A stretch of DNA of 48,815 nucleotides from Nitrospirota bacterium (lineage in GTDB: Bacteria; Nitrospirota; Thermodesulfovibrionia; Thermodesulfovibrionales; UBA1546). The notes below the pieces were generated by a model. That model was not told the DNA's origin. It searched no databases and saw only the letters and a list, made by a program, of their open reading frames with translations. Of the stretch, positions 27,288 to 30,396 are shown in pieces; within the stretch, counting starts at the first letter, position 1; the number at the start of each line of letters is the position of its first letter. The translations under genes were made by a program, and so were the position numbers. The stretch spans positions 1 to 48,815 of the forward strand of contig JACQXE010000066.1 in assembly GCA_016208915.1 (NCBI GenBank), given 5' to 3'.

Positions 27288-27542
27288 CTATCCTTTCCCT
27301 TTCAACAAGGTATTGTAGACAGCAGCGAATAAGACGCCTGTAACAAGGCCATAAATGAACATCCAAAATGTGCTTATAAAGACACCTGAGATGGTATGGG
27401 TGTATCCGGGATGAAAGGGCGCTATAAGCTCAAAAAATTCTCTTGCCCATCCGGTAAATACGGACAGCACAGTCAAAATAAAACTTGCCCCCCCTGAGAG
27501 AATTGCCATAGTTAAAGCGAATGCTTTTAGATTGAGTTTCAT
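27288..27542 (-). CDS. small membrane protein (DUF5676-like), second copy
   Basis: An 84-residue protein with two membrane segments (about 8-30 and 53-78) and the pattern KAFALTMAILSGG...HPGYTHTISGVFISTFWMFIYG. It is related in layout to the protein at 26809-27075. Its ATG overlaps the stop of the YHS-flavoprotein by four bases (ATGA), so it is co-translated with it. Function unknown; context points to metal stress. Confidence 0.75.
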   Translation of the reverse strand: MKLNLKAFALTMAILSGGASFILTVLSVFTGWAREFFELIAPFHPGYTHTISGVFISTFWMFIYGLVTGVLFAAVYNTLLKGKG

Positions 27543-28609
27543 ACCTTACCTCCTTTCCCCTTGTTTAGAATATACTGTCTCGCTGCCAGGGCAGCTTTAG
27601 CCCCTTCACCTGAGGCTATCACGATTCTCTTTCCAAAAGCATTTGTCACATCCCCTGATGCAAATATTCCGGGATACGAAGTTGAACAGTCGTTTTGTAT
27701 GATGATCTCGCCTTTTTCATTCAACCTGACGAGATGAGAGACAAGGGAAGAGTTCGGCTGGAGGCCAATTGCAATGAAAACGCCTTTAACCGGAAGCTTT
27801 ACTGTTTTTTCTTCGGCTTTCTTCCTGACAGCAATACCTGACAGTGCGCTCTCGCCGGAAAATTCTACTATCTTAAAGCCCTCATATTTAGTGAGGTTCT
27901 CAAATCGGCTGACCCTTTCAATAATCACCGGATCTGCTGTAAGCTTAAAATCAGAGATGAGATAGATTTTCTTTGCAACGGAATGAAGGTTTTCAACAAC
28001 CTGTAACGCTGAGTTCCCCCCTCCAACTACAGCTACATCCTCTCCCTGAACAAAAGAGATGTCCTGGATATTTCCATAAAATATTCCTCTTCTTTGGAGT
28101 CTCTCCTCACCTTCCACATTCAGTTTTCTCCTCGTCATGCCCGTCGCTATTATCAATGACCTGGTGAAATATTTGGTAAGTTTGGAGGTTGTGATATTAA
28201 GACCATCTTCAGCAGGTTCAATTTTTTCCACTTCACTCATAAGATGGTCTATATAATGTGAGCGGACAAGTTGCTGCTGAAACTTCTCTATGAGCTCAGG
28301 TCCGGTAATAAAGTCAAAGCCCATGTAGTTTTCTATCTTTGCGCTGTCTATTGCCTGACCGCCAAGCTCTTTTGTTATAAGCAATGCCTCCATTTTCAGG
28401 GTCGAAGCATATACAGCAGCTGTCAGCCCTGCCGGTCCGCCGCCGATGATGATAAGGTCATAGGATGTGCGGGGAGTCTTGCAGGCTTTTTCTTTCAGAA
28501 ATTTTTCCTTACACCCTTCAGAGCAGAAATAATAGAGAAGACCGTCACATTCTACAGTGATAGCGCCATATTCTCCGACATCCATGTTACATACAGGGTC
28601 TCTTTTCAT
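27539..28609 (-). CDS. YHS domain fused to a thioredoxin-reductase-like flavoprotein lacking the CxxC pair
   Basis: This 356-residue protein starts with a YHS domain (DPVCNMDVGEYGAI...YFCSEGC, residues 4-35). A thioredoxin-reductase-type flavoprotein follows, with the FAD motif DLIIIGGGPAGLTAA near 51, ATGMTRRKLNVEG, the NADPH-type VAVVGGGNSALQV near 195, and GIFASGDVTNAFGK. The redox pair that normally lies just before the nucleotide motif (CATC/CAVC) is replaced by GNIQ in FYGNIQDISFVQGEDVAV. It therefore cannot reduce thioredoxin in the usual way. It may be a metal-sensing or metal-reducing flavoprotein. It heads the copper run. Confidence 0.85.
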   Translation of the reverse strand: MKRDPVCNMDVGEYGAITVECDGLLYYFCSEGCKEKFLKEKACKTPRTSYDLIIIGGGPAGLTAAVYASTLKMEALLITKELGGQAIDSAKIENYMGFDFITGPELIEKFQQQLVRSHYIDHLMSEVEKIEPAEDGLNITTSKLTKYFTRSLIIATGMTRRKLNVEGEERLQRRGIFYGNIQDISFVQGEDVAVVGGGNSALQVVENLHSVAKKIYLISDFKLTADPVIIERVSRFENLTKYEGFKIVEFSGESALSGIAVRKKAEEKTVKLPVKGVFIAIGLQPNSSLVSHLVRLNEKGEIIIQNDCSTSYPGIFASGDVTNAFGKRIVIASGEGAKAALAARQYILNKGKGGKV

Positions 28610-28964: not shown

Positions 28965-29657
28965 TTATTTTTCTGTAACTGAAACCAGCTCAACCTCAAA
29001 GATGAGAACTGCAAATGGTCCTATAACACCTCCAGCACCGCGTTCGCCATAGGCAAGATTAGAGGGGATAAAAAGCTGCCACTTTGAACCTTCCTTCATT
29101 AACTGAAGCACCTCTGTCCATCCTGCAATAACACCAGTCACAGGGAATGTTGCAGCCTCTCCTCTTTTATATGAACTGTCAAACTCAGTCCCGTCAATCA
29201 GCGTGCCCCGATAATTAACTGTCACTGTATCATCTGCCTTCGGAGTCTTACCTGTTCCTTCCTTTATCACCTTATACTGCAGACCGCTTTTAGTCGTTTT
29301 TATGCCCTCTTTTTTCTTGTTTTCTGAGAGAAATGCCTCGCCTTCTTTCTTGTTTTTTTCAGCAAGCATCTTTATCCTGTCCTGCTGTTTTGACATCAAC
29401 TCATTGCGAAAAGACGTCATTGTCTCCTGAACCTCTTGATCTGTCATAAGTGGTTTTGCTCCTGAAAGACCGTCCTTTAGACCTTTTGCAAGAACTTCAG
29501 GATTGATATCTATCTCCTGCTTTTTTAAGTTTTTACCAGCATCAAGACCTATACTGTAACTTATCTTATCCTTCTGAGTATTCAACATCATCTCCTCAGC
29601 ATAAACAATGCCTGCTAAAAACATAGCACATACAATTATTGCCACAAGCAATTTCAT
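28965..29657 (-). CDS. FKBP-type peptidyl-prolyl isomerase, exported (Mip/FkpA-like)
   Basis: This 230-residue protein has a signal peptide (MKLLVAIIVCAMFLAGIVYA) and an N-terminal helical dimerisation part (YSIGLDAGKNLKKQEIDINP onward). A C-terminal FKBP domain follows, with YRGTLIDGTEFDSSYKRGE, GVIAGWTEVLQLMKEGSKW, IPSNLAYGERGAG and VLIFEVELVSV. It assists folding of periplasmic proteins. The gene is intact. It follows the rhodanese gene by 19 bases on the same strand and probably shares its transcript. Confidence 0.93.
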   Translation of the reverse strand: MKLLVAIIVCAMFLAGIVYAEEMMLNTQKDKISYSIGLDAGKNLKKQEIDINPEVLAKGLKDGLSGAKPLMTDQEVQETMTSFRNELMSKQQDRIKMLAEKNKKEGEAFLSENKKKEGIKTTKSGLQYKVIKEGTGKTPKADDTVTVNYRGTLIDGTEFDSSYKRGEAATFPVTGVIAGWTEVLQLMKEGSKWQLFIPSNLAYGERGAGGVIGPFAVLIFEVELVSVTEK

Positions 29658-29676: not shown

Positions 29677-30066
29677 TTATTTAACTATCCTATATCCTTT
29701 AGCTGTCCATTCTGGAAAGCCACCCGGGAAAATCTGGACATTATTATAGCCCGCCATTAGCGCTGCGACCGCAGCCTGTTTTGTCAGCCCTCAGCCAATA
29801 CCCCTGCAGTAAAAAATAATCGGCAATTTCTTGTTTTTGGGCAGAAAGGTCTCTATAACATTGACCTTTTCTGGCGGGATATTTATAGCTGTTGGTATAT
29901 GTCCTTCTCTGTATTCCACCTCCTCCCTGGCATCAACAATAACAATCTTGGCCTTACTATCGAGCATCTTTTTAAGTTCATTCGCGGTCAACGCCTTGAA
30001 ATCCTGCGCAAAGGACTGACCCAAAGATAAGGATAAAATAATCAATACAAATATCCATCTGATCAT
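29677..30066 (-). CDS. exported rhodanese with in-frame UGA: candidate selenoprotein
   Basis: The frame codes for 129 residues if the TGA at 29793-29791 is read through. A signal peptide (MIRWIFVLIILSLSLGQSFA) is followed by a complete rhodanese domain: IVIVDAREEVEYREGHIPTA, the active-site cysteine C87 in IFYCRGIG, then UGA as residue 92. After it come GLTKQAAVAALMAGYNNVQI and FPGGFPEWTAKGYRIVK, which is a normal rhodanese C-terminus. Many homologues, as I recall them, have Cys at residue 92 (C-x4-C-G-L). A hairpin with a GGUC loop lies downstream of UGA. Read-through as selenocysteine is the favoured reading; a simple nonsense mutation or sequencing error is the alternative. FkpA-like gene follows. 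Confidence 0.6.
29762..29793 (-). promoter_or_regulatory. SECIS-like hairpin after the in-frame UGA
   Basis: On the minus strand UGA (29793-29791) is followed after 20 bases by a hairpin: GCTGC (29775-29771), loop GGTC (29770-29767), GCAGC (29766-29762). Bacterial SECIS elements lie within the coding sequence directly after UGA and present G and U in the apical loop for SelB. The well-studied E. coli fdhF element has a GGUC loop 18 bases after UGA. The fit in distance, loop and stem is close. The extent given covers UGA to the end of the stem. Confidence 0.5.
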
Positions 30067-30396
30067 AATGCTACCCCTTGTTTTTAAGATTCTGAAACTT
30101 CATGCCCTTTTATAACTTTAGCTCAGAACAAAGATATTATTCAATCTCTCATTGTCTAAATCTGCTTCCCGTTGCCCTTTCCCCAGGCCAAAGCCTATTG
30201 TTTTAGTATATGTCACTCTATATAACAGGGAAAGACCCTGCCTGCGCATTTTCTTAAAACCCAAGGTGAAATGCACCTGACATATTTTGTGAAAGAACCT
30301 TCATAAATTGTCAGTTCTTAGCTATGTGAAAACTCTATCTTTAATAAATATTTAATAAATACAATGGGTTCGTATGTCTTATCTCTTTATTTTCTG
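30067..30396. other. spacer without recognised features
   Basis: This 330-base A+T-rich stretch between the divergent rhodanese and lytic transglycosylase genes shows no open frame with a ribosome site and no clear repeat. The rhodanese promoter should lie near its left edge, but no convincing hexamer pair was found. The right edge leads into the sigma-54 promoter. Confidence 0.4.

Follow-up and report, generated by a model that had tools for sequence, protein, structure and literature searches.

The reverse strand of the window (the whole stretch of DNA analysed here, 48,815 nucleotides of contig JACQXE010000066.1 from the Nitrospirota assembly GCA_016208915.1) carries a rhodanese gene in which an in-frame UGA, codon 92, almost certainly directs the insertion of selenocysteine (Sec), as judged from comparison with related sequences. 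By every comparative test available, it is a genuine selenoprotein gene. The single TGA that the initial annotation had placed inside the rhodanese frame at 29793-29791, five residues past the catalytic Cys, was confirmed in the sequence, as was the rhodanese C-terminus that continues beyond it to a TAA codon. The features of the locus are as follows:

29677..30066, (-): selenoprotein gene, ending in TAA, for a putatively exported rhodanese of one domain and 129 residues, Sec92 included (from the frame, PF00581 and orthologues)
29791..29793, (-): in-frame TGA, residue 92, almost certainly read as Sec (orthologues keep the TGA; other homologues have Cys here)
29806..29808, (-): TGC codon for the catalytic Cys87 of the C-x4-U active-site loop of the rhodanese (the residue does not vary in alignment A1 or A3)
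29762..29775, (-): central part of the probable bacterial SECIS hairpin, with GGTC (29770-29767) as the apical loop between the stem arms GCTGC and GCAGC (from the sequence and covariation across orthologues)
30007..30066, (-): putative signal peptide, residues 1-20, MIRWIFVLIILSLSLGQSFA (by eye; hydrophobic N-terminus)
30074..30079, (-): Shine-Dalgarno-like AAGGGG 5' of the ATG, a candidate assigned from the sequence
28965..29657, (-): FKBP-type peptidyl-prolyl isomerase gene (PF01346, PF00254, by Pfam), 19 bases downstream of the rhodanese gene

Around the TGA, which is codon 92 and lies five residues after Cys87, the local sequence reads FYCRGIG-U-GLTKQAAVAALMAGY. The Pfam rhodanese domain PF00581 extends across the TGA, from residue 27 to residue 123 (27-123), with 78.8 bits and an E-value of 4.7e-22 (77.4 bits in the genome search); the match covers profile positions 1-102 of 102, against a curated cut-off of 22.2 bits. 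In line with membership of the rhodanese superfamily, the catalytic C87 is invariant in both alignments and the predicted fold matches rhodaneses. Export of the protein is putative, with the signal peptide judged by eye.

The FKBP gene and the rhodanese gene are possibly co-transcribed as an operon. No FKBP gene was seen by eye beside the orthologues inspected, and no neighbourhood shared among the orthologues was found, their neighbours being different except in close relatives. Since the neighbourhood is conserved only among close relatives, it offers no clue to function, and gene neighbours were rejected as a guide. The window also contains, at 27539-28609 (-), a gene for a protein with an N-terminal YHS domain fused to a thioredoxin-reductase-like FAD protein.

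To follow the TGA through the phylum, a profile search covering 396 genomes was performed, all matches were aligned and the codon under column 92 was read. The TGA was kept in orthologues of 50-60% identity belonging to several families and to another class of the phylum. Among them are the closest relatives in other genomes, G027 (58% identity) and G018 (51%), the latter with two extra residues between Cys and Sec (C-x6-U). Altogether, 25 distinct single-domain Nitrospirota sequences retain the TGA, and so do 36 distinct three-domain rhodaneses in their first domain, among them a protein of the source genome. Where the catalytic Cys and the x4 spacing are both present, column 92 is encoded by TGA, TGC or TGT; non-Cys residues there come from other rhodanese types (e.g., CxU, catalytic-U and second-domain sequences), for which the alignment of this column is unsure and the loop differs. 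The expectation in the initial annotation that homologues have Cys at this position was therefore borne out: the conserved in-frame UGA is aligned with Cys in the homologues that lack Sec. Three single-domain Cys orthologues nest among the TGA sequences in a tree, taken here by its branching order and not by support values, and this nesting suggests that they are Sec-to-Cys reversions.

The initial annotation had further reported a SECIS-like hairpin 20 bases after the TGA and had held that such a stem was unlikely to be there by chance. The hairpin GCTGC-GGTC-GCAGC is indeed present at 29775-29762, but the 20 bases fit the distance to the loop, while the stem begins after 15 bases. For the window sequence by itself the argument from chance proved weak: a 45-nt stretch folded with -11.4 kcal/mol, no better than dinucleotide shuffles (z = +0.51), and the hairpin was not stronger than in synonymous recodings (z = +0.25). 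Proof from the window hairpin alone was thus rejected and, because this hairpin is not exceptional by itself, the case for a SECIS is carried by the family, where comparative data established it.

With the T of the TGA counted as position 1, a six-pair stem (18-23/28-33) was formed in 94% of cells across the 25 distinct single-domain TGA sequences, and sliding one arm dropped pairing to 20-66%. In a formal count on 23 orthologues, 94.9% of cells were paired vs. 80.0% in shuffles, 24 cells vs. 8 were changed on both sides and the covariation score was 0.406 vs. 0.104; none of 500 shuffles was as high on these three measures, although the sequences are related and hence non-independent, so that the shuffle counts overstate certainty. 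Sliding the arms destroyed the covariation, and the number of pairs changed on both sides (two) was not above that in shuffles of the same orthologues. Variation is confined to pairs 21-30 and 18-33, both of which connect third codon positions and are therefore not dictated by the protein sequence. Pair 21-30 was formed in 25/25 single-domain TGA sequences, in all four Watson-Crick types, with the same two alanines encoded as GCT..GCA, GCC..GCG, GCA..GCT or GCG..GCC across orthologues; it was broken (A-G or G-G) in the three single-domain Cys orthologues. Measured against synonymous recodings, hairpins of TGA members were stronger (mean z -1.07, n=64) and those of Cys members were not (mean z +0.06, n=50), with a Mann-Whitney p of 1e-8 that ignores relatedness. 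Some three-domain Cys copies, e.g., L138 and L140, retain a good stem, as would be expected of remnants of a lost SECIS. In G018 the C-x6-U loop is longer, yet the hairpin lies just as far from the TGA as in the others. The loop is GGTC in 13 of the 25 single-domain TGA sequences and contains at least one G in all of them. The family thus has a hairpin just 3' of the UGA, conserved in position and with a G in its apical loop, as in bacterial SECIS elements.

The machinery for Sec insertion is encoded in the source genome, a draft assembly of 88 contigs and 98.8% completeness. selA (630 bits), selB (394 bits, cut-off 242), selD (327 bits) and a tRNA-Sec with anticodon tca (69.6 bits) were all found, an absence of which would have told against the initial annotation; selD has an in-frame TGA of its own, followed by a GUC-loop hairpin at a distance similar to that in the rhodanese gene. 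Across 22 genomes with a single-domain TGA copy, selB was above the cut-off in 20; it was not found over the cut-off in the other two, G235 and G097, perhaps due to incomplete assemblies. Among eight genomes picked for a Cys copy, selB was over the cut-off in four, partial in one and not found in three (G133, G226 and G210). This co-occurrence fits the reading of UGA as Sec, although draft genomes make it no strict test.

TGA also terminates ordinary genes in the window, e.g., the nearby YHS-reductase gene, which shows that the code is not reassigned, and a general reassignment of UGA was ruled out. This normal use of TGA as a stop in the source genome is also what could be said for a real stop at codon 92, leaving either a pseudogene or a working truncated protein of 91 residues. 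Such a product would be without the remainder of the rhodanese fold, the downstream frame is conserved to its end across many species, the TGA recurs at one column and covariation of the hairpin is seen at synonymous sites; with the comparative evidence speaking so strongly against it, we consider truncation very improbable. An error for TGC or TGT in the sequencing or assembly, for which the draft state of an assembly in 88 contigs and Cys as the usual alternative at this column could be cited, is scarcely conceivable and may be regarded as already refuted for the family, since the same TGA is found in the independent Nitrospirae assemblies MnB_6, UBA6905, UBA6898, SZUA-452, NC_groundwater_1767 and DBS2-1.bin112. 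Hence, none of the outcomes by which the initial annotation could have failed was encountered, with sel genes present, Cys in the aligned column and TGA in independent genomes.

In order to place residue 92 in the fold, an AlphaFold2 model was built from 13 aligned sequences (mean pLDDT 77.8), the structure predicted from the single sequence being too poor (pLDDT 52). The model has a rhodanese fold, and its Foldseek matches are to rhodaneses, among them BH2092 (8.8e-6). Cys87 follows the strand 83-86 and residue 92 precedes the helix 93-104; Cys87 is thus predicted to begin the active-site loop and Sec92 to end it, directly before the next helix.

In rhodaneses the catalytic Cys is the residue that bears sulfane sulfur, in the form of a persulfide. 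Position +5 lies at the opposite end of the loop, and a Cys or Sec there could resolve this persulfide as a disulfide or S-Se bond; the strict exchange of the column between Cys and Sec would be expected if residue 92 were such a redox partner. We infer a redox or sulfur-transfer function for the C87/U92 pair, as the initial annotation had, and propose the following sequence of steps. On the comparative evidence, UGA92 is almost certainly decoded by SelB and Sec-tRNA, aided by the hairpin starting 15 nt downstream. Cys87 would then take up sulfane sulfur as a persulfide, or attack a persulfide or disulfide, and Sec92 would resolve the Cys87 intermediate through a reversible internal S-Se bond, whose formation would set sulfide free or hand the sulfur on. 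The Cys87/Sec92 pair would finally be reset by a thiol reductant of the periplasm. Taken as a whole, an exported Sec92 rhodanese with a persulfide-resolving Cys87/Sec92 mechanism is the reading that we moderately favour from the sequence comparisons. A literature search on second-cysteine persulfide rhodaneses found none.

Less probable, yet to be taken seriously, is that the protein is a selenoprotein in which Sec92 serves chemistry other than persulfide transfer, such as disulfide, selenenyl or peroxide redox reactions, selenite or metal handling, or metal binding by the Cys/Sec pair. The chief competitor of the persulfide mechanism is general thiol-disulfide redox chemistry: in TsoB this rhodanese motif is joined to a DsbD-like part, hinting at disulfide electron flow, and a redox role is assumed for the majority of bacterial selenoproteins (PMC9312934; PMC13188914). 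Against this, the rhodanese fold and the catalytic Cys of the window protein are intact. In rhodaneses, it is established that this Cys usually carries sulfane sulfur.

A 2026 review of bacterial selenoproteins lists five rhodanese forms, namely UxxS, UxxG, CxU (NF041203), UxxG and UxxxxU (TsoB) (PMC13188914). CxxxxU is absent from the text of that review, and rhodaneses go unmentioned in the deep-Sep paper. A C-x4-U motif with the catalytic Cys kept, in both stand-alone exported and three-domain proteins, is outside the forms in PMC13188914, to which any claim of novelty is limited. Sec at column 92 as such is not new, since the second Sec of the two Nitrospirota TsoB proteins sits there. TsoB (NF045694) is the best NCBIfam match of the window protein and likewise has a rhodanese domain with Sec at +5; Nitrospirota TsoB reads FYUDGLTUVRSHG, its second U corresponding to column 92. 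In contrast to the window protein, which has a single domain and keeps the catalytic Cys, TsoB has a further Sec in place of the catalytic Cys, together with a large membrane part that resembles DsbD. With 71.7 bits against a cut-off of 805, 129 residues and Cys at the first position, the window protein was not assigned to TsoB. NF041203, the third form in the review, resembles it in being small and having a Sec near a retained catalytic Cys, but that Sec lies two residues past the Cys and not five; assignment to this family was also rejected (52.9 bits against a cut-off of 115, motif C-x4-U). Forms 1, 2 and 4 of the review, UxxS and UxxG, share the rhodanese fold and bacterial Sec insertion, with Sec placed otherwise than in C-x4-U. 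The three-domain CxGxTU rhodaneses have the same C-x4-U motif, TGA at the same column and a conserved hairpin of their own, whereas their three domains, longer N-terminal part and separate clade set them apart. BH2092 of Bacillus halodurans (PDB 3nhv, 3o3w) is a C-x4-C rhodanese (YCWGPAC) that agrees with the window protein in fold and spacing but has Cys at +5 in place of its Sec.

The chances are about even that these proteins form a Nitrospirota subfamily of exported C-x4-U rhodaneses, absent from the PMC13188914 list, in which Cys is catalytic and Sec resolving, and which would act as persulfide reductases or transferases via a selenenylsulfide, C-x4-U being one of several Sec layouts on one active-site loop in the phylum (C-x4-U, U-x4-C, U-x4-U, CxU and catalytic U). 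Not only the window protein but also the related three-domain proteins and further rhodaneses of Nitrospirota would be truncated at the active site by gene finders reading UGA as a stop, and sulfur metabolism in the phylum may therefore be misread. Because its members differ in whether Cys or Sec occupies the attacking and the resolving position of one loop, the family is a natural series on which the gain of Sec over Cys can be tested directly.

Further Sec layouts were observed among the matches. The paralogue in the source genome (C14:7349; G000:C14:7334-7648, L003) is a 457-residue three-domain rhodanese with a TGA in its first domain (FYCAGETU) and a hairpin of its own; a few members of this three-domain type have Cys instead (L138-L141 and L125). 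Full-length TsoB with two TGA codons (FYUDGLTU) occurs in two Nitrospirota genomes (L146, L147). The reverse layout, a catalytic TGA with Cys at +5 (FYUNGVKCW), was seen in L045, L110 and L111, which have relatives reading FYCNGVKCW. A TGA at the catalytic position (YUGSGVRSRAAA), with a GC-rich hairpin downstream, is found in five Nitrospirota sequences (L056, L057, L059, L060 and L061), and L050-L055, L058 and L062 are CxU-type rhodaneses (YCTUHEEHTS) akin to the NF041203 motif. The rhodanese-like L047 and L048 may have yet another Sec site, at a TGA within TIUMFDKRSP. Outside Nitrospirota, Desulfovibrio sp. UBA6079 has C-x4-U in a second rhodanese frame (L102, YCRSFRULRSEIAAR), the hairpin of which is strong (z -3.3).
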